Shown here: positions 2,764 to 14,110 of the stretch, one piece after another
How the letters are laid out: each line of letters begins with the position of its first letter
Position numbering within the stretch: the first letter of the stretch is position 1
Source of the DNA: a virus
IMG/VR virus record: IMGVR_UViG_3300045116_000102
Span: 1 to 37,547 of that record
Reading direction: 5' to 3' (one strand)
DNA length: 37,547 nt
Translations under genes and position numbers: made by a program
Notes under the pieces: model-generated
The model's database searches: none
Seen by the model: only the letters and a program-made list of their open reading frames with translations
Told to the model about the DNA's origin: nothing

Positions 2764-3486
2764 ATGGGAACCTTCACGCCGAAACGCACCCCAGAGCAAC
2801 GCCGTCTCGACATTATCGCGACATGCCGGATGCGGTCCAAAGGCGTGGACTGGCCAGACATTGCCCGCAAGCTGTGCGAGGGAAAGGGCTACACGCTCAC
2901 ACGCCAGGCGGTGTACAAGGACTACATGGCCGAGGTGGCGAAGCGCAACGCCGAGATGTCCGAGGAGGTGGGGCGGTCGGTGGCTATCACTATCATGCAG
3001 TTGGACCACTTGATAAAGGAATGCTGGGACGGCTATGAACGGTCGAAGCGGGATCGGGCCAGCCGGCGCCACCCAATCGGCAAGGATGGAAACCCAGACC
3101 GGACAACGGGAACATTCGAGCAGAGCCTCTCGGATGGCGATCCGGCCTGGCTGGGTAGAATCGAGTCGCTGATCCAGCGCAAGGTCGCGCTCCTGGGTGT
3201 TGAACCGCCGGTGAAGCATGCCTTGGTTGGGCCCAATGGTCAGTTGACGGGTGCTGGGGCGGTTCTGGTGCTGCCGTCGAATGGGTTCGAGTTGGAGGTG
3301 GCCAAGCTGAAAGGGAATGATGCAAGCGTTATCGACGTTGGAGGAGCAGAAGCGGAAGCTGACGCAGGAGATGCAACGGGCGCTGAAGGCGCCCAAGCCA
3401 CCGTTGCTGACGCACCGGCGGAAACAGACGGAGGTGATGGGCCCTCAACCTGGGCCGCAGAAGGCATTTCTCAGCACCCCGGCTGA
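2764..3486 (+). CDS. Terminase small subunit-like protein
   Basis: A 240-aa protein directly before the large terminase subunit. Residues about 14-60 (RLDIIATCRMRSKGVDWPDI onwards, through the TRQAVYKDYM stretch) form a helix-turn-helix as in phage small terminases that bind the packaging site. A helical middle follows. The last 50 residues are very rich in Ala, Gly, Asp and Glu and are encoded where the next gene also reads, so this tail may be a by-product of overlap. The start ATG has only a weak ribosome site. The role is inferred from the helix-turn-helix and gene order. Confidence 0.65.
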   Translation: MGTFTPKRTPEQRRLDIIATCRMRSKGVDWPDIARKLCEGKGYTLTRQAVYKDYMAEVAKRNAEMSEEVGRSVAITIMQLDHLIKECWDGYERSKRDRASRRHPIGKDGNPDRTTGTFEQSLSDGDPAWLGRIESLIQRKVALLGVEPPVKHALVGPNGQLTGAGAVLVLPSNGFELEVAKLKGNDASVIDVGGAEAEADAGDATGAEGAQATVADAPAETDGGDGPSTWAAEGISQHPG

Positions 3487-4828
3487 GGTGTGCATCTATG
3501 GCGGTGCAGCCGGCGGCGGCAAAACGTATGGTCTTCTCCTCGAACCACTGCGGCACCGTGCCGTGCGGAACTTCGCTGCGGTAATTTTCCGGCGCAACGC
3601 CGTCCAGATCGACAATCCTGGCGGCCTCTGGGACACATCCGAGGACCTGTACTCGGCATTCGGCGGCCGGGGTAGCCGGCACCGGCACACCTGGACCTGG
3701 GACAGCGGGTTCGAGATTCGCTTCGCGCATCTTGACCGGGAGGAAACGAAGTTCTCGTACCAGGGGGCACAAATACCGTTCATCGGATTCGACGAGCTGA
3801 CGCACTTCTCGCGCAGCCAGTTCTTCTATCTGTTCAGCCGCAACCGGTCGTTGACCGGTGTCCCGGGGTACATCCGGGCCACGACGAATCCAGGCGGCGT
3901 CGACAACTGGGTGACCAAGCTGGTCGAGTGGTACATCGGGGACGACGGGTTCCCGATTCGAGAACGATCAGGGGTCATACGCTGGTTCATGCGGGACGGC
4001 GACGCACTGTCATGGGGAAGCAGCAAAGGGGAACTGCTCAAGAAGCATGGATCCGATGCCGCCCTGACCATGAAGTCTTTCACGTTCATTCCGGCGAGGG
4101 TGTTCGACAATGGCATCCTGTTGCGGCGTGACCCGTCCTACTTGGCCAATCTGCAGGCCCTGCCCATGGTGGACCGCGAGGCCCTGCTGGGTGGCAACTG
4201 GCATGTAATCCCGGCCGCCGGCCTGTTCTTTAAGCGGGAATGGTTCGAGGTTGTGCCGGTGATTCCGATTGGCCGAACGCGGACCATTCGATATTGGGAC
4301 TTGGCTGGCACGCAGAAAACGGACGACAACGACCCCGACTGGACGGCGGGCGTGAAGATGACCAAGGTCGATGGCGGCTACTACGTGGTGCACGCGACGC
4401 GATTCCGTGAATCGCCGGCCAAGGTAGAGGATCGCATTCGCAACATCGCTTCCCAAGACGGCAAACAGGTCGAGGTCCACATCAACCAGGACCCCGGCCA
4501 GGCTGGTCAGGCCCAGGCGTTCCACGTCGCACGAATGCTAGATGGGTACACAATCCGCATGCACCGGGAATCTGGCAACCCGTTGGATCGAGTAAAGCCG
4601 TTCTCGTCGCAGGTGGAACATAAGAACGTCAAGCTGATCGGCGGTTCATGGGTTGACGATTATCTCGGCGATTTGGAGGCATTCCCGGATGGGACACACG
4701 ACGACTATACAATGGCCAGTGCCATGGCATACAGCGTCCTTGTGGACGACATCATGCCTCGCGTTCTTCCGTCCGCATTGCCGAGCACGCGGCGGCTGGA
4801 ACGGTCGGACCGGAGCGCAATGGCATAG
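3317..4828 (+). CDS. Terminase large subunit
   Basis: A 503-aa packaging motor. Walker A is YGGAAGGGKT (residues 61-70) and Walker B is FIGFDE (155-160). The RNase H-fold nuclease is marked by RYWDLA (325-330) and HDDYTMA (461-467), giving the acidic metal ligands. The pattern fits the Terminase_6 group. The ATG at 3317 overlaps the small subunit by 170 bases. The ATG at 3437 (MGPQPGPQKAFL) has GGAGG only three bases upstream, and still leaves Walker A intact. The start is therefore uncertain, the function is not. Confidence 0.92.
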   Translation: MMQALSTLEEQKRKLTQEMQRALKAPKPPLLTHRRKQTEVMGPQPGPQKAFLSTPAEVCIYGGAAGGGKTYGLLLEPLRHRAVRNFAAVIFRRNAVQIDNPGGLWDTSEDLYSAFGGRGSRHRHTWTWDSGFEIRFAHLDREETKFSYQGAQIPFIGFDELTHFSRSQFFYLFSRNRSLTGVPGYIRATTNPGGVDNWVTKLVEWYIGDDGFPIRERSGVIRWFMRDGDALSWGSSKGELLKKHGSDAALTMKSFTFIPARVFDNGILLRRDPSYLANLQALPMVDREALLGGNWHVIPAAGLFFKREWFEVVPVIPIGRTRTIRYWDLAGTQKTDDNDPDWTAGVKMTKVDGGYYVVHATRFRESPAKVEDRIRNIASQDGKQVEVHINQDPGQAGQAQAFHVARMLDGYTIRMHRESGNPLDRVKPFSSQVEHKNVKLIGGSWVDDYLGDLEAFPDGTHDDYTMASAMAYSVLVDDIMPRVLPSALPSTRRLERSDRSAMA

Positions 4829-5000
4829 AAATCGTTTGACATGCGTCGTAAGTATGCGACCTTGGCGAAGCAAATGAGCAACACCGGACAGGATGACAGA
4901 ACGCCGCGCACCTGCGGAGCGGATCGTTGCGGTGGTCCGGTGAAACGAGTGTGATTCAGTGTCGGTAAACATAAACCAACAGAACCAACAGGAGAAAACT

Positions 5001-5279
5001 ATGGGAAAGCAACAACAACACCCCTATAAGGTCGGTGGTCTGTACTTCATTCGGACCGTAACCCACCACCACACCGGCAGATTGATGGAAGTTTACGAGC
5101 ACGAGCTTGTTTTGGGACAGGCTGCGTGGATTGCTGACGACGGTCGGTTTTCGCAATCCGTCTCCACCGGTGATTTCAATGAGGTTGAACCGTTCCCGTC
5201 GGACCACAGAGTTATCGTCGGTCGCGGGTCTATAATTGACGCTGTGGAGATTCCCAAGCTGCCGACTGAGCAGAAGTAA
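5001..5279 (+). CDS. Small conserved-looking phage protein preceding the hexamer array
   Basis: A 92-aa protein. ATG 5001 is chosen over the longer frame from 4959 because AGGAG lies 7 bases upstream. The sequence has a compact globular look: GLYFIRTVTHHHTGRLMEVY, then ELVLGQAAWIADDGRFSQ, then NEVEPFP and IVGRGSIIDAVEIPKLP. From memory this resembles a recurrent small phage family with RTVT...TGRL...AAWIAD...GRF motifs and no known function; unverified. It ends 59 bases before the first array unit, so co-transcription with the array is likely. Confidence 0.65.
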   Translation: MGKQQQHPYKVGGLYFIRTVTHHHTGRLMEVYEHELVLGQAAWIADDGRFSQSVSTGDFNEVEPFPSDHRVIVGRGSIIDAVEIPKLPTEQK

Positions 5280-5304
5280 GTGGTGTGTCTTGAACAACGA
5301 ACGA

Positions 5305-5327
5305 TTACCCGGTCACTGACCCGGTAA
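5305..5327 (+). promoter_or_regulatory. Near-perfect dyad in front of the hexamer array
   Basis: TTACC-C-GGTCA, a single C, then TGACC-C-GGTAA: two 11-base arms with one C/C mismatch. It is followed by TAAAAACTACA and the first array ATG at 5339. No purine-rich ribosome site precedes that ATG. The dyad could be an operator, or an RNA hairpin controlling entry to the array. Function is inferred from position only. Confidence 0.4.
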
Positions 5328-5338
5328 TAAAAACTACA

Positions 5339-5560
5339 ATGAACCAGCCGATCACATTTTCGGAGAGTTATCGATCATGGTTTGGATCAGGTCCGCGGTC
5401 CTGGTCGGTGTCGGGGTCGGGTCCGCGGGCGGGATCTTGGCCCTGGTCTAGGTCGAGGTCGGGGTCGAGGGTTGGTTCGCGGGCGGGTTCGCGGTCTGGG
5501 GCTGGGTCGTTGTCGCGGGCGTGGTCGTGGTCTAGGTCTGGGTCGTTGACGGGGTCGTAG
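5339..5560 (+). CDS. Array unit 1: Ser-X repeat protein
   Basis: 73 aa. It has the most divergent leader, MNQPITFSESYRSW, followed by Ser alternating with Trp, Arg or Gly. TAG ends it two bases before the next ATG. As first unit it is the probable entry point for ribosomes, yet no Shine-Dalgarno sequence is visible in ATAAAAACTACAATG. Coding is plausible rather than proven, because GGTCNN DNA is automatically stop-free in this frame. Confidence 0.5.
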   Translation: MNQPITFSESYRSWFGSGPRSWSVSGSGPRAGSWPWSRSRSGSRVGSRAGSRSGAGSLSRAWSWSRSGSLTGS

Positions 5561-5562
5561 CT

Positions 5563-5724
5563 ATGAACCAATCGATTGCAATCATGGGATGTTACCGATC
5601 ATGGTCTGGGTCGTGGTCGCGTTCGGGGCTGCGGCACAGCCTCCGGGCTGGGTCGAGCGTGGGGTCGAGGTCGTGATCGAGGCCTGGGGCTGGGTCGTTG
5701 TCGCGGTGGGCGTGGTCTTGGTGA
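5563..5724 (+). pseudogene. Array unit 2, interrupted by a stop codon
   Basis: Leader MNQSIAIMGCYRSW. The frame meets TGA at 5674-5676, where the array norm would be TGG (Trp), giving a 37-aa product. Ignoring that single G-to-A change, the frame continues for 53 codons to a TGA at 5722-5724 that overlaps the GTG of unit 3. The tail here is also less regular (GLRHSLRAGSSVGSRS). Confidence 0.5.
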
Positions 5725-5936
5725 ACCAATCAATCGCATTCGTGGGGTGTTACCGATCATGGTCGGGGACTAGGTCGTGGGTTCGGTCGCGGACCAGGCC
5801 GTGGTCGTGGTCTAGGGCGTGGTCTGGGTCTCGGTCTGGGTCTCGGTCTGGATCGTGGGTGGGGTCATGGTCACGGTCTCCGTCACGGTCTCGGTCTGGG
5901 TCGTGGTCATGGTCAGGGTCTGGGTCGCATCGATGA
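5721..5936 (+). CDS. Array unit 3: Ser-X repeat protein
   Basis: 71 aa from GTG. The leader is of the second type, VNQSIAFVGCYRSW. The tail contains Pro and Val variants (SWVRSRTRPW) before regular SG/SR/SW pairs, and ends GSHR with TGA overlapping the next ATG (ATGA). Confidence 0.45.
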   Translation: MNQSIAFVGCYRSWSGTRSWVRSRTRPWSWSRAWSGSRSGSRSGSWVGSWSRSPSRSRSGSWSWSGSGSHR

Positions 5937-6253
5937 ACCAAGCGATTGCAATCAACGTGTGGTCGTGGTCTCGGTCGTGGTCGTGGTCGTGGTCACGGTC
6001 TGGGTCTAGATCGCGGTTGGGGTCGGTGGCGTGGTCACGGTCTGGGTCTAGGTCGTGGTCGTGGTCGCGGTCGCGGTCGGCCTGGCCGGGGGCGTGGTGC
6101 TTGCCGGGGGCGGGGTCTAGGGCGTGGTCTAGGTCTCGGCGTGGGTCTAGGGCATGGTCTGGGTCTGGGTCTGAGACTGGGGATTGGTCGGGGTCTGGGA
6201 ATTGGTCGGGGTCACGGTCTGCGGTGGAGTTGTGGGCTGGGTCGCATCGATGA
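5933..6253 (+). CDS. Array unit 4: Ser-X repeat protein
   Basis: 106 aa, the second longest unit. Leader MNQAIAINVW. A central interruption (AWPGAWCLPGAGSRAW) breaks the Ser-X pattern, and the end reads SAVELWAGSHR. ATGA overlap with unit 5. Confidence 0.45.
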   Translation: MNQAIAINVWSWSRSWSWSWSRSGSRSRLGSVAWSRSGSRSWSWSRSRSAWPGAWCLPGAGSRAWSRSRRGSRAWSGSGSETGDWSGSGNWSGSRSAVELWAGSHR

Positions 6254-6498
6254 ACCAAGCGATTGCAATCAACGCGTGGTGTTGGTCTCGGTCGCGGTCG
6301 TTGTCGCGGTCGTTGTCGCGGTCGTGGTCACGGTCGTGGTCATGGTCTCGGTCTCGTTCTCGGTCTCGTTCTCGGTCTGGGTCTAGGGCGGGGTCTAGGT
6401 CTGGGTCTAGGTCGTGGTCCTTGGCGGGGTCGGAGTCGCGGGCGCGTCCTGGCCGGGGTCTGGGGCTAGGTTGGGGTCTGGGTCGCGGTCGTGGTTGA
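6250..6498 (+). CDS. Array unit 5: phase-slipped Ser-X repeat protein
   Basis: 82 aa, leader MNQAIAINAW. Near 6445-6455 the hexamer phase shifts, so the last 16 residues read Gly-Leu/Gly-Arg (GRGLGLGWGLGRGRG) instead of Ser-X. The TGA at 6496-6498 falls 10 bases before the next ATG, the only junction that is neither an overlap nor the usual TAG plus two bases. Its distance to the next start is the only one leaving remainder 1 on division by 3. Confidence 0.4.
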   Translation: MNQAIAINAWCWSRSRSLSRSLSRSWSRSWSWSRSRSRSRSRSGSRAGSRSGSRSWSLAGSESRARPGRGLGLGWGLGRGRG

Positions 6499-6508
6499 GG
6501 TCGCATCA

Positions 6509-6790
6509 ATGAACCAAGCGATTGCAATCAACGTGTGGTATCGGTCGTGGTCTCGGTCTCGGTCGTGGTCTCGGTCTCGGTCTCGGTCTCGGTCGTTGTC
6601 GCGGTCGTGGTCTCGGCCGTGGTCTCGGCCGTGGTCTCGGCCGTGGTCTCGGTCTCGGTCGGGGGCGTGGTTTGGGGCTAGGTCGTGGTCTGAGTCACGG
6701 TCTGGGTCTAGGTCCTGGTCGGGGTCGTTGGCCAAGCCGTGGTCTGGGTCTGGGTCGCGGTCGCGGTCTGGGGAGGGGTCGCAGCGATGA
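6509..6790 (+). CDS. Array unit 6: Ser-X repeat protein
   Basis: 93 aa, with the hybrid leader MNQAIAINVWYRSW combining both leader types. It contains a threefold SRPW block from GGTCTCGGCCGT repeats near 6612-6645. It ends GEGSQR with ATGA overlap. Confidence 0.45.
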   Translation: MNQAIAINVWYRSWSRSRSWSRSRSRSRSLSRSWSRPWSRPWSRPWSRSRSGAWFGARSWSESRSGSRSWSGSLAKPWSGSGSRSRSGEGSQR

Positions 6791-7014
6791 ACCGGGTGGT
6801 TGCAATCAACGCGTGGTATCGGTCGTGGTCTGGGTCGTGGTCTCGGTCTCGGTCTCGGGCGGGGTCGGGGTCGTTGTCTCGGTCGCGGTCTGGATCGCGG
6901 GCGGGGTCATGGTCTGGATCGCGGTCGTTGTCTCGGTCGCGGTCTGGATCGTGTGTGGGGTCTCGGGCGTGGTCCTGGGCTGGGTCTCGGGCGGAGTCTC
7001 GGTCTGGGCCGTAG
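6787..7014 (+). CDS. Array unit 7: Ser-X repeat protein
   Basis: 75 aa, leader MNRVVAINAWYRSW. A short internal duplication (GSRSLSRSRSGS-type) corresponds to GGTCTGGATCGCGG repeats near 6887-6950. It ends RSGP with TAG two bases before the next ATG. Confidence 0.45.
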   Translation: MNRVVAINAWYRSWSGSWSRSRSRAGSGSLSRSRSGSRAGSWSGSRSLSRSRSGSCVGSRAWSWAGSRAESRSGP

Positions 7015-7016
7015 CG

Positions 7017-7250
7017 ATGAACTTGGTGGTTGCAATCAACGTGTGGTCTAGGTCGGGGTTGCGGTCGGGGGCTGGGTCTAGGTCTTGGTCTTGGTCTTGG
7101 TCTCGGTCCTGGCCGCGGGTGTTGTCGGGGTCGGAGTCGGGGGAGGCGGAGGGGTCACGGTCGTTGTCGGGATCGCGGTCTGGGTCGAGGGCGGGGTCGA
7201 GGGCGGGGTCGAGGGCGGGGTCTAGGTCATGGTCAGGGTCTGGGTCGTAG
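7017..7250 (+). CDS. Array unit 8: Ser-X repeat protein
   Basis: 77 aa, leader MNLVVAINVWSRSG. It contains a short acidic break (SESGEAEGSRS) and a threefold GSRA block from GGGTCGAGGGCG repeats near 7190-7220. TAG two bases before the next ATG. Confidence 0.45.
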   Translation: MNLVVAINVWSRSGLRSGAGSRSWSWSWSRSWPRVLSGSESGEAEGSRSLSGSRSGSRAGSRAGSRAGSRSWSGSGS

Positions 7251-7252
7251 CG

Positions 7253-7420
7253 ATGAACCAAGCGATTGCAATCAATGTGTGGTCTGGGACGTGGTCTGGG
7301 GCTTGGTCTGGGGCTTGGTCTGGATCGCGGTCGGTGTCTTGGTCTGGGTCGGAGTCGCGTTCGGGTTCGCGGTCGGGAGCATGGTCGGAGTCGCGGTCTC
7401 GGTCTGGGTCGCATCGGTGA
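7253..7420 (+). CDS. Array unit 9: Ser-X repeat protein
   Basis: 55 aa, the shortest intact unit. Leader MNQAIAINVWSGTW, closely matched by unit 13. Its tail end (SESRSGSRSGAWSESRS) recurs nearly identically in unit 13, which points to duplication between units. GTGA overlap with unit 10. Confidence 0.45.
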   Translation: MNQAIAINVWSGTWSGAWSGAWSGSRSVSWSGSESRSGSRSGAWSESRSRSGSHR

Positions 7421-7668
7421 ACCAAGCGATTGCAATCAACGTGTGGTCGTGGTCTCGGTCTCGGTCGTTGTCTCGGGCGCGGTCTCGGTCTCGGTCGTCG
7501 TCGGAGTCGTGGGCGTGGTCTGGGTCTAGGGCGTGGGTGGGGTCTCGGTCACGGTCTGGGCCGTGGGCGTGGTCTGGGTCTGGGTCACGGTCTGGGTCGT
7601 GGGCGGGGTCTGGGGCGTGGTCTGGGTTTGGGGCGGGGGGGTGGTCCTGGTCAGGGTCTGGGTCGTAG
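7417..7668 (+). CDS. Array unit 10: Ser-X repeat protein
   Basis: 83 aa from GTG, leader VNQAIAINVWSWSR. The second half has more Gly, Ala and Phe (GAWSGFGAGGWSW). TAG two bases before the next GTG. Confidence 0.45.
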   Translation: MNQAIAINVWSWSRSRSLSRARSRSRSSSESWAWSGSRAWVGSRSRSGPWAWSGSGSRSGSWAGSGAWSGFGAGGWSWSGSGS

Positions 7669-7670
7669 CG

Positions 7671-7927
<257 letters not shown>

Positions 7928-7931
<4 letters not shown>

Positions 7932-8191
7932 ACCAATCAATCGCATTCGTGGGGTGTTATCGGTCATGGTCGTTGTCGCGGTCTAGGCCGTGGTCGTGGT
8001 CTAGGGCTAGGTCTCGGTCTCGGGCGTGGTCGTTGTCACGGTCGTGGTCGAGGTCTGGGGCGGAGTCGTTGTCGGGTTCGGGATCGCGGTCTAGGGCGTT
8101 GTCACGGTCGTGGTCGAGGTCTGGGGCGCGCTCGTGGTCGTGGTCGGGGGCTCGGTCGTGGCCGTGGTCGGGGGAGGGGTCGCATCGGTGA
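7928..8191 (+). CDS. Array unit 12: Ser-X repeat protein
   Basis: 87 aa with the second leader type, MNQSIAFVGCYRSW, as in units 3 and 15. A roughly 60-base block near 8034-8090 is repeated near 8099-8130 (SRSWSRSGAES and SRSWSRSGARS). GTGA overlap. Confidence 0.45.
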
Positions 8192-8433
8192 ACCAAGCGA
8201 TTGCAATCAATGTGTGGTCTGGGACGTGGTCTGGGTCTTGGTCTGGATCGCGGTCGGTGTCTTGGCCGGTGGCGTGGTCTCGGTCGGGGTCGGGATCGCG
8301 GTCTAGGGCGTTGTCGGGGTCTCGGTCGCGGTCTGGGGCGTGGTCTCGGTCGTGGTCCTGGTCTGGGTCGGAGTCGCGTTCGGGTTCGCGGTCGGGAGCA
8401 TGGTCGGAGTCGCGGTCTCAGTCTGGGTCGTAG
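8188..8433 (+). CDS. Array unit 13: Ser-X repeat protein
   Basis: 81 aa from GTG, leader VNQAIAINVWSGTW. Both ends match unit 9 closely and the middle differs, as expected if the ends were copied together. It ends SQSGS with TAG two bases before the next ATG. Confidence 0.45.
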   Translation: MNQAIAINVWSGTWSGSWSGSRSVSWPVAWSRSGSGSRSRALSGSRSRSGAWSRSWSWSGSESRSGSRSGAWSESRSQSGS

Positions 8434-8435
8434 CG

Positions 8436-8648
8436 ATGAACCGAGTGATTGCAATCAACGTGTGGTCTAGGTCGGGGTTGCGGTCGTGGTCTGGGTCTAG
8501 GTCTTGGTCGGGGTCGGTGGCATGGTCACGGTCTGGATCGTGGTCACGGTCGTGGGTGGGGTCGGGATCGCGGTCTCGGGCGGGGTTGCGGTCACGGTCG
8601 TGGTCGTTGACGTGGTCTGGATCGTGGTCACGGTCGTGGGTGGGATGA
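8436..8648 (+). CDS. Array unit 14: Ser-X repeat protein
   Basis: 70 aa, leader MNRVIAINVWSRSG. Two copies of a segment GSWSRSWVG appear, the second at the C-terminus. ATGA overlap with unit 15. Confidence 0.45.
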   Translation: MNRVIAINVWSRSGLRSWSGSRSWSGSVAWSRSGSWSRSWVGSGSRSRAGLRSRSWSLTWSGSWSRSWVG

Positions 8649-8995
8649 ACCAAGCAACCGCATTCGTGGGGTGTTATCGATCATGGTCGTGGTCGTGGTC
8701 ACGGTCTGGATCTAGGTCCTGGTCGGGGTCGGTGGCGTGGTCACGGTCTGGGTCTAGGGCGGGGGAGGGGTCTCCGTCACGGTCTCGGTCGTGGTCTGGG
8801 GCGTGGTCTGGGTCTCGGTCGTTGTCGTGGTCGGGGGCTTGGTCTCGGGCTTGGTCTCGGGCTTGGTCTCGGGCTTGGTCTCGGGCTTGGTCTAGGGTGT
8901 GGTCTCGGTCTCGGTCTGGGCCGTGGGCCAGGCCGTGGGCCAGGCCGTGGTCTGGGTCGCGTTCGGGTGGGGGCGTGGTCGGGGGCGGGCCATAA
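8645..8995 (+). CDS. Array unit 15: last and longest Ser-X repeat protein
   Basis: 116 aa, leader MNQATAFVGCYRSW. It contains five consecutive WSRA-type repeats (near 8840-8890) and three WARP/PWAR repeats, and ends GGGVVGGGP. TAA at 8993-8995 overlaps an ATG (TAATG) that opens a 23-codon ORF entering the cassette region, so the coupling pattern continues past the array. Confidence 0.45.
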   Translation: MNQATAFVGCYRSWSWSWSRSGSRSWSGSVAWSRSGSRAGEGSPSRSRSWSGAWSGSRSLSWSGAWSRAWSRAWSRAWSRAWSRVWSRSRSGPWARPWARPWSGSRSGGGVVGGGP

Positions 8996-9066
8996 TGGTG
9001 GCAGGTCAATCGAATCCGACATGGCGAACGATCAAGCTGAGCGACGGGAGTGCGAACAACCCATGA
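8995..9066 (+). CDS. 23-aa ORF bridging array and cassettes
   Basis: MVAGQSNPTWRTIKLSDGSANNP, starting in a TAATG overlap and ending in an ATGA overlap with the next gene. Its end, KLSDGSANNP, matches KLTDRGANNP at the end of the first methyltransferase-like gene (9700-9729) because both are read through the same part of an attC-like site. It is more likely a consequence of that repeated DNA than an independent gene. Confidence 0.25.
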   Translation: MVAGQSNPTWRTIKLSDGSANNP

Positions 9067-9134
9067 TACTGGAAACTCAAACGACATCCGAATGGCGAGC
9101 GCCCGCTCCCGTTCGCTCCGGTGACTGGTTAGGG
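9023..9134 (+). other. attC-like site 0
   Basis: R''-like GGCGAAC (9023-9029). L'' arm GAGCGACGGGAG (9039-9050) pairs with CTCCCGTTCGCTC (9106-9118) except for one extra T, the extrahelical base typical of attC sites. R' core is GTTAGGG (9128-9134). The ATG at 9063 of the downstream gene lies inside the site. Confidence 0.75.
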
Positions 9135-9729
9135 CGCGTTCTTGTGGCCTGCGAATATAGCGGCATCGTCCGTGACGCCTTCGCTGCTCTGGGCTGGGAT
9201 GCGTGGTCGTGCGACCTACTGCCGAGCGAGAAGCCCGGCAACCACCCACCAATGCGACGTGCGCGAAATCCTGGGCGAAGGCTGGGACATCATGGTGGCG
9301 CATCCGCCGTGTGTGCATCTGGCGGTGAGTGGTGCGCGCTGGTTCGCAGCCAAACAGCGCGAGCAAGCGGAGGCTCTAGACTTCGTGCGGCTGCTGCTGT
9401 CCGCGCCGATACCGCACATCGCACTCGAAAACCCGATAAGCGTCATAAGCTCGAAAATCCGAAAGCCCGACCAAGTGATACAGCCGTGGCAGCACGGCCA
9501 TGGAGAGACGAAGGCAACGTGCCTCTGGCTAAAGAATCTCCCGCGCCTCATGCCGTCGAATGTCGTGAATGGCCGCGAACAACGAATCTGGAAACTGCCG
9601 CAGAGTGCGGACAGGTGGAAAGAACGAAGCCGGATGTTCTCCGGCATAGCTGGGGCGATGGCGAACCAGTGGACGCTCGCCACGCGCCCTAACGAAAAGC
9701 TCACCGACCGGGGCGCGAACAACCCATGA
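9063..9729 (+). pseudogene. Cassette A: cytosine methyltransferase-like phage protein with a one-base frameshift
   Basis: The N-terminal part reads LVACEYSGIVRDAFAALGWD and CDLLPSEKPGNH in the frame of ATG 9063. The rest (QCDVREILGEGWDIMVAHPP, then LAVSGARWF, then QPWQHGHGETKATCLWLKNL and RWKERSRMF) is in another frame ending at TGA 9727-9729. Removing one C from the run at 9244-9246 gives the family sequence PGNH-HQCDVREIL without a gap. The family is common in phages and related to C-5 cytosine methylases, though catalysis is unproven. Cassette A has no ATG near its own start, so translation probably begins in attC-like site 0 (9063, or 9021). This may be a pseudogene, a programmed shift or an assembly error. 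Confidence 0.75.
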
Positions 9730-9798
9730 CGACCGATTGCAACGAGAGCGTTGAAACTGCCGAGGCCCGCCCCGGTTCGGTGAAGCATCTTGTTATGC
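9684..9798 (+). other. attC-like site 1
   Basis: R'' GCGCCCTAAC (9684-9693). L'' arm GCTCACCGACCGGGGCG (9699-9715) pairs with CGCCCCGGTTCGGTGAAGC (9768-9786), leaving two unpaired bases. R' core GTTATGC (9792-9798), followed by CG. Its centre shares GCGAACAACCCATGA with site 0. Confidence 0.8.
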
Positions 9799-10466
9799 CG
9801 CGTCTTTTGGATTTGTTCTGCGGCGCCGGCGGTGCTGGTGAAGGATACCGACAGGCCGGATTCGACGTAACTGGCGTGGACATTAAGCCGCAAAAGAACA
9901 ACCCGCATCGCTTCGTGCTCTCCGATGCTCTCGAATACGTTGCGGAACATGGAAGCGAATATGATGCAATCCACGCCTCGCCGCCCTGCCAAGCCTACTC
10001 GATGGCCGCACAGACTCAGCGCAATCGGGGCAAGGTGTATCCTGACCTGTTGGCCGTGACTCGATGTGCGCTCCAAAAGACTGGCAGGCCGTGGGTGATC
10101 GAGAATGTGCCGGGTGCTCCGATGCGACCAGACTTCAAACTCTGCGGTTGCCAATTCGGGATGAATCTGCGCCGGGAGCGGTGGTTTGAAACGTCGTGGC
10201 ACGCGTTCGCACTGCTCCCAAGCTGCCACCACCCGTTCCCGGTCGTGTCGGTAGTCGGGCACGGCACACCGACATGGGTGCGCGAAAAGCTGGGATACAA
10301 CCCGACAATCAAGCACTACCGAGAGGCGATGGGCATAGACTGGATGAACCGCGAAGAACTATCGCAGGCGATTCCACCCACGTTCACCGAATACATTGGC
10401 CGCTACCTACGCGCGGAGGTCGAGCGGCATAACGACCGAACTGAGCGACAGCCGCCCGGACGGTGA
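9795..10466 (+). CDS. Cassette B: DNA cytosine methyltransferase
   Basis: A 223-aa protein. Motif I is LDLFCGAGGAGEGY (residues 5-18), the catalytic Pro-Cys lies in SPPCQAYS (62-69), and motif VI is IENVPG (102-107). ATG 9795 sits inside the GTTATG at the very start of the cassette, as is usual for cassette genes; an in-frame ATG at 9726 would add 23 residues read through the attC-like site. The protein is short for the family and lacks an obvious target-recognition domain. It probably protects phage DNA or marks it against host restriction. Confidence 0.85.
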   Translation: MPRLLDLFCGAGGAGEGYRQAGFDVTGVDIKPQKNNPHRFVLSDALEYVAEHGSEYDAIHASPPCQAYSMAAQTQRNRGKVYPDLLAVTRCALQKTGRPWVIENVPGAPMRPDFKLCGCQFGMNLRRERWFETSWHAFALLPSCHHPFPVVSVVGHGTPTWVREKLGYNPTIKHYREAMGIDWMNREELSQAIPPTFTEYIGRYLRAEVERHNDRTERQPPGR

Positions 10467-10554
10467 CGTAATGACCACGGAAGCCACAATGCCGCCAATG
10501 GTGTTCGCCAAAGCTGAAGGCGGGGCGGCTGTTCGCTCCAGTGACTTGTTAGAG
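10424..10554 (+). other. attC-like site 2
   Basis: R'' GCGGCATAAC (10424-10433), the exact complement of the start of cassette B. L'' arm CTGAGCGACAGCCGCCC (10441-10457) pairs with GGGCGGCTGTTCGCTCCAG (10523-10541) except for an unpaired T and C. R' core GTTAGAG (10548-10554). The end GTTCGCTCCAGTGACTTGTT closely matches the same part of site 0. Confidence 0.8.
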
Positions 10555-11412
10555 CATTCGGCCTCCGACTCTCAAACACTCTATGAGCTACACCTATTTG
10601 CTGGAGTCGGGGGAGGAATCCTCGGCGGTATCCTTTGCGGACATATCCCATGCTGCGCTGTGGAAATCGAACCGTATGCCCGACAAGTCCTGCTGCAACG
10701 GCAACGCGATGGAATCCTGCCGCCGTTTCCAATCTGGGATGATGTCCGAACCTTCGATGGACGACCGTGGCGAGGAATCGCCGATGTCATCTGCGGTGGA
10801 TTCCCATGCCAAGACATCAGCTACGCCGGAAAGGGAAAAGGTATCGAAGGTGAGAGAAGCGGACTCTGGAGCGAGATGGCCAGAATCATTGGCGAAGTAC
10901 GACCGCGCTTCGCGCTTGTGGAGAACTCGGCAGCTCTCACTTTTCGGGGGCTTGGGCGAGTCCTTGGAGACCTGGCCGAACTGGGGATGGATGCGCGATG
11001 GGGAGTGCTGGGAGCAAACCATGTCGGCGGACTCCATCGGAGAGCCCGAATCTGGCTGGTGGCCTACTCCAAAGAAAATGGATGGGGTGAAGATGCTACT
11101 GACAGAATCACCGGCGCACTGGTGGAGCGAGTATCAGCGCCATGCGAAACGCGGAGTAAGGAAGCAATACCACCTCTCAATCGCAGTCCATTTCGGTTGC
11201 GGGGAATCCAAATTCAAAGAACGGATCGAACGCCATGGAGTGCCATCGCCGAACCCCGACGAACAACTCAGCCCGGAATGGGTGGAGTGGTTAATGGGGT
11301 GGCCAACGGGATGGACCGACTTGCAGCCATTGGAAACGGACAAGTTCCGGCTGTGGCTGCACTCGCATGGAAAATCCTCGACGCTCAACTGACCGCTAAC
11401 GCGAACGCGTGA
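10471..11412 (+). CDS. Cassette C: C5 DNA cytosine methyltransferase
   Basis: Up to 313 aa. Motif I is LFAGVGGGILGG (residues 42-53), the catalytic motif IV is GFPCQDIS (110-117), motif VI is LVENSA (149-154), motif VIII-like HRRARIWLV follows, and motif X is NGQVPAVAALAW near the C-terminus. The start is uncertain: ATGs at 10471, 10489 and 10498 lie in the attC-like site, and no ATG lies between cassette start and motif I. A second long frame overlaps its 3' two thirds. The last codons contain the remnant R'' box CGCTAAC, and TGA overlaps the next GTG. Confidence 0.88.
   Translation: MTTEATMPPMVFAKAEGGAAVRSSDLLEHSASDSQTLYELHLFAGVGGGILGGILCGHIPCCAVEIEPYARQVLLQRQRDGILPPFPIWDDVRTFDGRPWRGIADVICGGFPCQDISYAGKGKGIEGERSGLWSEMARIIGEVRPRFALVENSAALTFRGLGRVLGDLAELGMDARWGVLGANHVGGLHRRARIWLVAYSKENGWGEDATDRITGALVERVSAPCETRSKEAIPPLNRSPFRLRGIQIQRTDRTPWSAIAEPRRTTQPGMGGVVNGVANGMDRLAAIGNGQVPAVAALAWKILDAQLTANANA
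10784..11392 (+). CDS. Overlapping second-frame protein inside the cassette C methyltransferase
   Basis: A 202-aa frame lying wholly within the methyltransferase gene. It starts at ATG 10784 with AGGA 8 bases upstream. Its sequence is protein-like: DSHAKTSATPERE, SLAKYDRASRLWRTRQLSLF, GLGESLETWPNWGWMRDGE, WWPTPKK and SPEWVEWLMGWPTGWTDLQP. From memory these AKTS...SLFGG...WPTP...EWLMGWP.GW patterns recur in phage proteins near cytosine methylases. Both frames carry recognisable motifs over the same 600 bases, so this is likely true dual coding. Function unknown. The frame could be extended upstream to 10583. Confidence 0.7.
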   Translation: MSSAVDSHAKTSATPEREKVSKVREADSGARWPESLAKYDRASRLWRTRQLSLFGGLGESLETWPNWGWMRDGECWEQTMSADSIGEPESGWWPTPKKMDGVKMLLTESPAHWWSEYQRHAKRGVRKQYHLSIAVHFGCGESKFKERIERHGVPSPNPDEQLSPEWVEWLMGWPTGWTDLQPLETDKFRLWLHSHGKSSTLN

Positions 11413-13424: not shown

Positions 13425-14110
13425 CTGGGCGAGGCTTGGCGAGGCGCGGCCGGGCACGGCAAGGCGAGGCGGGGCCGGTCTTGGCAACACCACCCCCGGG
13501 GTCAAACCCGGGGGAAGATTTCGTGGAGTGGCAAGGCAGGGCTTGGCGGGGCGATGCTGGGCCGGTCGCGGCGACACCACCCCCGGGGTCACACCCGGGG
13601 GAAGATTTCGCGGTGGGGCGTGGCGAGGCGGGGCCGGTCTTGGCAACACCACCCCCGGGGTCAAACCCGGGGGAAGATTTCGCGGTTGGGCATGTCCTGG
13701 CTGGGCGAGGCGGGGCCTGTCGTGGCGGGTCGAGGCGACACCACCCCCGGGGTCACACCCGGGGGAAGATTTCGCGGTGGGGCGTGGCGAGGCGGGGCCG
13801 GTCTTGGCGACACCACCCCCGGGGTCACACCCGGGGGAAGATTTCGCGGCGGGGCTTGGCCGGGCTCGGCGAGGCTTGGCGTGGCGAGGCCGGTCGAGGC
13901 ACCATCACCCCCGGGGTCAAACCCGGGGGAAGATTTCGCGGTTGGGCATGTCCTGGCCGGGCTCGGCAAGGCGGGGCTTGGCCGGTCTTGGCAACACCAC
14001 CCCTGGGGTCACACCCGGGGGAAGATTTCGTGGAGTGGCAAGGCAGGGCTTGGCGGGGCGATGCTGGGCCGGTCGCGGCGACACCACCCCGGGGGCGTCA
14101 AAACCCCCCG
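13425..14110 (+). repeat. GGCNN pentamer array with eight GC hairpin elements
   Basis: The stretch is built of GGCNN pentamers (GGCGA GGCTT GGCGA GGCGC GGCCG, some GTCNN). It is interrupted by a hairpin, CCCCCGGG-GTCAMA-CCCGGGGG (M is A or C) followed by AAGATTTCGYGG. Hairpins start at 13493, 13580, 13652, 13744, 13816, 13908, 14000 and, degenerate, about 14087. Their spacings are 87, 72, 92, 72, 92, 92 and 87 bases, all leaving remainder 2 on division by 5. A block of about 75 bases at 13512-13585 recurs at 14019-14091. The long ORFs across it are products of the repeat and not convincing genes. Confidence 0.92.

Follow-up and report, generated by a model that had tools for sequence, protein, structure and literature searches.

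attC sites and methyltransferase genes in a phage genome

The window analyzed here is the whole 37,547-nucleotide (nt) virus record IMGVR_UViG_3300045116_000102 of IMG/VR, which carries phage genes for a terminase, a Mu-type portal, a head protease, and a major head protein. Within it, positions 9023-11400 hold three sites of the kind used by integrons for recombination (attC), each followed by a DNA methyltransferase gene. A sequence-only reading had proposed that integron attC sites and gene cassettes lie inside this phage genome, pointing to three sites with paired arms, extrahelical bases, and GTT cores. All three are present, and the covariance-model scores and the terminase, portal, and head genes bear the proposal out. 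The features are as follows:

9023..9134, + strand: attC site 0, R'' GGCGAAC (9023-9029) and R' GTTAGGG (9128-9134); model R1 45.8 bits, model R2 68.3 bits
9063..9729, + strand: gene A, phage DNA methyltransferase (PHROG 757, E = 1e-50; from translations)
9128..9139, + strand: first 12 nt of the cassette A body, GTTAGGGCGCGT, exact complement of ACGCGCCCTAAC at 9682-9693
9687..9798, + strand: attC site A, CCCTAAC (9687-9693) and GTTATGC (9792-9798); R2 57.1 bits
9726..10466, + strand: gene B, C5-type DNA methyltransferase (PF00145, 2e-6; phrog_363, 1e-40)
9792..9801, + strand: first 10 nt of the cassette B body, exact complement of 10424-10433
10427..10554, + strand: attC site B, GCATAAC (10427-10433) and GTTAGAG (10548-10554); R1 47.1 bits, R2 73.8 bits
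10471..11412, + strand: gene C, C5 DNA methyltransferase (PF00145, 4e-27; phrog_363, 3e-59)
11394..11400, + strand: right-hand R box CGCTAAC closing cassette C, its AAC in frame in gene C

Two covariance models were built without the window: R1 from 19 attC sites of Spartobacteria/Verrucomicrobiota chromosomes and R2 from 80 attC sites of other viral contigs. Across both, E-values for the window sites ranged from 7e-11 to 1.5e-18 (with R1, 3e-11 for site B and 7e-11 for site 0). Site A was not detected by the chromosomal model R1. Beyond the three sites, neither model returned a match in the 37.5 kb at E ≤ 10. This check had been suggested by the sequence-only reading, and the R2 scores (73.8, 68.3, and 57.1 bits) lie far above background. 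An Rfam search gave no family matching the sites at the gathering score. Both the models and the sequence itself reveal an imperfect inverted repeat of the form R''-L''-loop-L'-R' with AAC/GTT cores. Extrahelical bases occur in one arm: in sites 0 and B, L' has both a T and a C left unpaired, and site A has a single unpaired T. By computation, the sites at 9023-11400 are confirmed as integron attC.

When folded as single strands, sites A and B did better than shuffles (z about -3.8 and -2.4), while site 0 did no better (z -0.2/+0.6). Folding energy is uninformative there, so site 0 is called from the covariance model and the sequence family. Chance inverted repeats or an assembly artefact might be suspected, as the contig is metagenomic and site 0 alone folds no better than shuffles. 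However, E-values this low from models that had not seen the window, and the same attC family across many independent contigs, speak against that suspicion, which we regard as already refuted because of the covariance scores. The loop motif GNGCGAACAACCCATGA was also tried as a family marker and rejected; it gave five matches, the only relevant one being the viral locus L022.

The sequence-only reading had further claimed that the starts of cassettes A and B complement the R'' boxes at their far ends and that this is improbable by chance. The complementarity is exact, with that of A, at 12 nt, longer than had been noted. A 12-mer complement in 3.4 kb has a chance of about 2e-4, even before it is required to sit on the R box of the next attC. 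The terminal R-box complementarity of cassette C is 5 nt only (GTTAG, to R' of site B). The right end that had been drawn at 11399 proved meaningful, as the R box CGCTAAC lies at 11394-11400.

Each methyltransferase gene has its predicted start inside an attC site. The ATG of gene A (9063) sits in the loop of site 0. This gene had no Pfam matches, and its family was assigned through PHROG. Its frame breaks near 9239-9258, running in frame 1 from ATG 9063 and in frame 2 to TGA 9729, which may be either a real frameshift or a sequencing error. Frame 2 ends in RPNEKLTDRGANNP, and its TGA overlaps the ATG of gene B (9726) as ATGA at 9726-9729, within attC A. The first 23 residues of gene B are encoded by attC A, and a second ATG is available in the R' box GTTATGC of that site. 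Gene B ends in HNDRTERQPPGR within attC B (stop at 10464-10466), where gene C starts at ATG 10471. From the R' box to the domain of gene C there is no in-frame ATG, GTG, or TTG, so the start of this gene has to be within attC B. The gene ends in LTANANA, with the AAC at 11398-11400 in phase 0 in the R box, and its TGA shares bases with the GTG that opens the next open reading frame (ORF) at 11409. On another contig (L091), a homologue of gene B with 87% amino acid identity across residues 26-228 starts at an ATG of its own and lacks an attC.

We also observed a second open frame within gene C (10583-11389, + strand) that matches phrog_1008 (E = 1e-18) and phrog_26627 (E = 9e-15) and has the C-terminal sequence WVEWLMGWPTGWTDL. 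The main frame matches to its end, the overlapping frame matches phage DNA methyltransferase families too, and both look conserved.

Phage cassette genes are inverted relative to attC and intI

In the textbook integron layout, cassette ORFs run away from the integrase gene, intI. We took chromosomal arrays with an adjacent intI as the polarity reference and called the orientation in which the window is written the P-orientation. Orientation was called from ORF length and the strand assigned by the attC model, and all data are assembled contigs. In P-orientation, chromosomal arrays have intI to the right of the array and cassette ORFs running leftward, away from it. In the window and other viral contigs, cassette ORFs run rightward, and related phage arrays have intI at the far end, pointing away from the array. 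The ratio of longest ORFs on the P strand to those on the other was 129:24 for phage-integron cassettes vs 5:83 for Verrucomicrobial chromosomal ones (Fisher p = 6e-36); cassettes within one array are not independent for this test, and the orientation contrast persists over many contigs. As computed here, the polarity of attC relative to intI in these relatives is the usual one, and it is the genes that are inverted.

From the extrahelical bases in L', compared with the Vibrio cholerae repeat (VCR) and attCaadA7, we take the + strand of the window to be the canonical bottom strand. The recombining strand is predicted to be the window + (coding) strand, rather than the bottom strand that the sequence-only reading had put forward.

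The starts found in the window recur across the phage arrays. An ATG in attC whose frame stays open for 60 codons or more beyond the R box was computed for 124/215 phage sites vs 29/212 on the mirrored strand, and for 10/118 chromosomal sites. Where exactly one frame was open for 60 codons in phages, attC held an in-frame ATG in 90/121 cases vs 40/242 for the other frames; chromosomal arrays had no such excess (10/35 vs 16/70). At their other ends, 73 of 105 ORFs had their stop within the attC that follows, and spacing to the next start showed a sharp peak at -4 nt (the ATGA overlap).

Reading phase was also constrained. Where an ORF crossed the next AAC core, AAC was read as a codon in 57/60 cases. 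The stop in TAAC biases this count, so we restricted it to cores other than TAAC, where AAC was in frame in 37/40 (p = 7e-15). Another 14 ORFs terminated at the TAA of the R box. By contrast, phase at GTT, in the other R box, was uniform (43/45/48). Since a phase lock is needed only where cassettes join, this places the join at AAC and makes attC part of the following gene's cassette. Co-travel of attC with the downstream gene could likewise be computed. In one cassette pair (L036/L111), bodies were 92% identical, preceding attC sites 96%, and following attC sites 55%, against a background of attC similarity with a mean of 59% and a 95th percentile of 72%. Preceding attC sites also agreed in L035/L039 and in two cassettes of L090. 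The window array conforms to the phage rules, with starts in attC, an ATGA overlap, and AAC in phase.

Might these simply be canonical cassettes from a host integron, with attC as the 3' end of the upstream gene and the direction and leaders accidental? The attC family is common to Verrucomicrobiota chromosomal integrons, the R-box complementarity is identical under either reading, and the virulent-phage results of Qi et al. (PMC9892861) include same-direction cassettes in phages TJE1 and PH101. Still, we consider this explanation unlikely. A canonical cassette has attC 3' of its gene and is transcribed away from intI, whereas here the genes run the other way relative to attC and intI (5:83 in chromosomes, 129:24 in phages), phase is locked at AAC rather than GTT, and attC travels with the downstream gene. 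The canonical layout also leaves site 0 and gene C orphaned. Under the inverted reading, by contrast, the three attC sites, three genes, and closing R box would make up three whole cassettes. The sequence-only layout is thus replaced by units of site 0 with gene A, site A with gene B, and site B with gene C, predicted from polarity, co-travel, and phase:

9029..9692, + strand: predicted mobile cassette A, attC 0 plus gene A (crossover AA/C)
9693..10432, + strand: predicted mobile cassette B, attC A plus gene B
10433..11399, + strand: predicted mobile cassette C, attC B plus gene C (right end weaker, with 5-nt complementarity)

Related phages encode integron integrases

Neither a PF00589 tyrosine recombinase nor intI was found in the 37.5-kb linear record, so that the window array can be called only putatively mobile. 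With three attC sites and no intI, the window holds what is known as a cluster of attC sites lacking integron integrases (CALIN). The intI of a complete integron, missing there, adjoins the array in related phage contigs, among them G017, G027, and G043. Using three phage integrases (IntI) as queries over viral contigs, we computed at least 111 contigs encoding relatives, 80 of which were fetched. In the three contigs just named, intI directly follows the array (256, 290, and 270 bits, respectively). Against TIGR02249, phage IntI scored 256-290 bits, and the best solved relative was the integron integrase 2a3v. Model R2 gave 259 attC matches in the 79 loci searched (54 distinct loci without duplicates), nearly all immediately upstream of intI and in a single polarity. 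Three profiles were used to look for a large terminase on 36 contigs, and 25 carried one.

In a tree of 100 IntI, 35 formed a phage-only clade with support of 100/100. The IntI of L195/L197, L199, and L192 fell among chromosomal ones, and the arrays of L195, L197, and L199 were likewise mostly inverted. Because several of these rows are long branches, the count of independent origins is uncertain. Further viral IntI lineages (L160-L193) were seen, some with short attC (58-70 nt) poorly covered by the present models.

Among the products of attC-started ORFs in other phage arrays are N6/N4 methylases, MT-A70, a PAPS-reductase-like protein, and DUF1643; their domains begin after the R box. In a separate observation, one phage contig (L113, G025; 3269-9497) packs ~15 attC sites into 6 kb, with cassettes down to ~150 nt. 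C-terminal tails that recur among them, NDQVERQPPPPTR for example, are encoded by the attC that follows.

The sequence-only reading had looked to related phages in which this locus holds other cassettes, and these did not emerge: nine terminase relatives (30-52% identity) had no such sites, leaving no occupied/empty comparison of the window locus. A weak site match in L001 (21.9 bits) was rejected, being unconfirmed at E ≤ 0.001 over the whole contig. No relative sharing all three genes turned up; the attC family itself is present on many other viral contigs, where it accompanies different cassettes.

The absence of intI from the record, the stop-start overlaps within the sites, the apparently broken gene, and the lack of the block in terminase relatives could also be explained by RNA-level coupling or attenuation hairpins in a phage methylase operon, with recombination lost and the integron origin a fossil. 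We find this very unlikely. Exact R boxes and cassette-end complementarity would be useless to an RNA element, related arrays adjoin intact IntI genes, and one cassette was found with differing neighbors.

Two repeat regions were seen elsewhere in the window. Directly left of the array, a stretch of ~3.5 kb (5400-8960) consists of degenerate, hexamer-like repeats of GGTCNN. Recurrent ATGAACCAAGCAATCGC starts (MNQAIAINVW followed by (S/R/G)n) break up the repeats, and several frames are open on both strands. Tandem repeats of 72-164 bp at 13460-14060 code for GPVLATPPPGSNPGEDFAV in more than one open frame.

The attC family points to Verrucomicrobiota

A 22-base L'-R' attC pattern was scanned over one genome per species in 84,980 species. 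All 16 loci found lie in Verrucomicrobiota metagenome-assembled genomes (MAGs); 15 carry the label Spartobacteria or Chthoniobacteraceae, and the remaining one is unclassified. Several of these loci are arrays, and one (L047/L101) shares its contig with a full IntI (467 bits). Because all loci of this pattern are in Verrucomicrobiota MAGs, the host of the window phage is probably a member of this phylum (Spartobacteria-like). A 5.4-kb contig in a Verrucomicrobiota bin (L060, BJFP01000298.1) carries attC of the phage type along with methylase cassettes in the inverted direction, and it may be a prophage or a phage contig placed in the wrong bin. The chromosomal set excludes it on account of its phage-type site and gene direction.

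Comparison with known systems

Cassettes with attC and methylases in phages are already known, and the suggestion that such arrays are hardly described was too strong. The virulent-phage results of Qi et al. (2023; PMC9892861) include attC clusters with methyltransferase cassettes, report that IntI1 recombined five of six tested sites, and suggest protection from restriction. The phage CALINs described there (TJE1, P12002L, PH101, and MW202573) resemble the window in having attC without intI and DNA methyltransferase cargo. However, their cassettes are same-direction (TJE1, PH101) or their attC directions mixed (P12002L). The virulent-phage results and term-matched passages of that paper mention neither a start codon inside attC nor a phase lock nor an IntI clade of phage lineage. 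With model R1, TJE1, MW202573, and P12002S (the sister phage of P12002L) gave no matches.

The sedentary chromosomal integrons of Verrucomicrobiota share with the phage form the attC family and the way attC is placed and oriented relative to intI, but their genes run away from intI and in-frame attC starts are not in excess. In Treponema integrons, intI is turned around and transcribed toward attI (PMC3607928). As in the phage form, intI and cassette genes are transcribed in the same direction. In Treponema, however, intI is flipped and precedes the cassettes, whereas intI of related phage arrays sits at the far end and points away, its relation to attC is the usual one, and the genes are flipped to run toward it. 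Translation aids within attI and attC, namely attI1 ORF-11 and attC short ORFs, have been reviewed (PMC8876359). There too, signals in a recombination site aid expression of the next cassette. Those act through a separate short peptide that couples translation, while the phage attC start is fused in frame to its gene and, by the polarity evidence, travels with it. In the open-access literature, we found no report of integron integrases on viral contigs, a phage IntI clade, a "phage-encoded integron," inverted attC-start cassettes, or phase standardization, and priority is uncertain. What appears to be new here is the gene arrangement, inverted relative to attC polarity and intI.

A proposed inverted, attC-led cassette format

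Taken together, we are confident that the block is an integron-derived CALIN in a phage form with inverted, attC-led methylase cassettes. Several points weigh against this. The record has no integrase, and gene A is frame-broken in the assembly. Site A departs from the attC family and escapes the chromosomal model, and the right-end complementarity of cassette C is only 5 nt. Among phage cassettes, 24 (~16%) have the longer ORF on the canonical strand, and the co-travel evidence comes from a few informative pairs. For some viral IntI groups with short attC, model coverage is poor, and the host call draws on attC type.

Under this interpretation, 9023-11400 would be a small cassette array without its own integrase, in which each of three units is an attC followed by a DNA methyltransferase gene. 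Compared with bacteria, genes in the phage form would be reversed relative to attC and intI. Each attC would act as the 5' leader of its gene, where the upstream ORF usually stops, often at ATGA, and would provide the next ORF with its start codon and N-terminal residues. The mobile unit would then be attC plus the downstream gene, frame-standardized and translationally coupled. Cassettes would be joined at AA/C of the left R box, and because phase is standardized there, they could follow one another with coupling intact. Expression would come from the phage's own transcription, with no integron promoter, and the integrase might be provided in trans by a co-infecting phage, a prophage, or a host integron. 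The methylase cargo likely serves as protection from host restriction.

Implications for phages and integrons

Integrons are regarded as bacterial platforms in which genes mostly depend on one shared promoter and attC hairpins hinder translation of the next cassette. We think it likely that phages have an integron kind of their own, with more than one origin from cellular IntI. In it, attC would be a stop-start relay of fixed phase, and IntI would reorder or exchange methylase and other accessory genes within a phage operon, leaving expression undisturbed. Used in reverse, the same attC sites would serve as translation relays of standard phase, giving coding modules a natural plug-in format. 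This suggests that phages maintain integrons of their own, beyond stray bacterial fragments. DNA methylases are prominent among the phage-integron cargo, plausibly for swapping anti-restriction genes. The movement of cassettes between phage and host integrons, and the strand and orientation needs of IntI, would now become directly testable.

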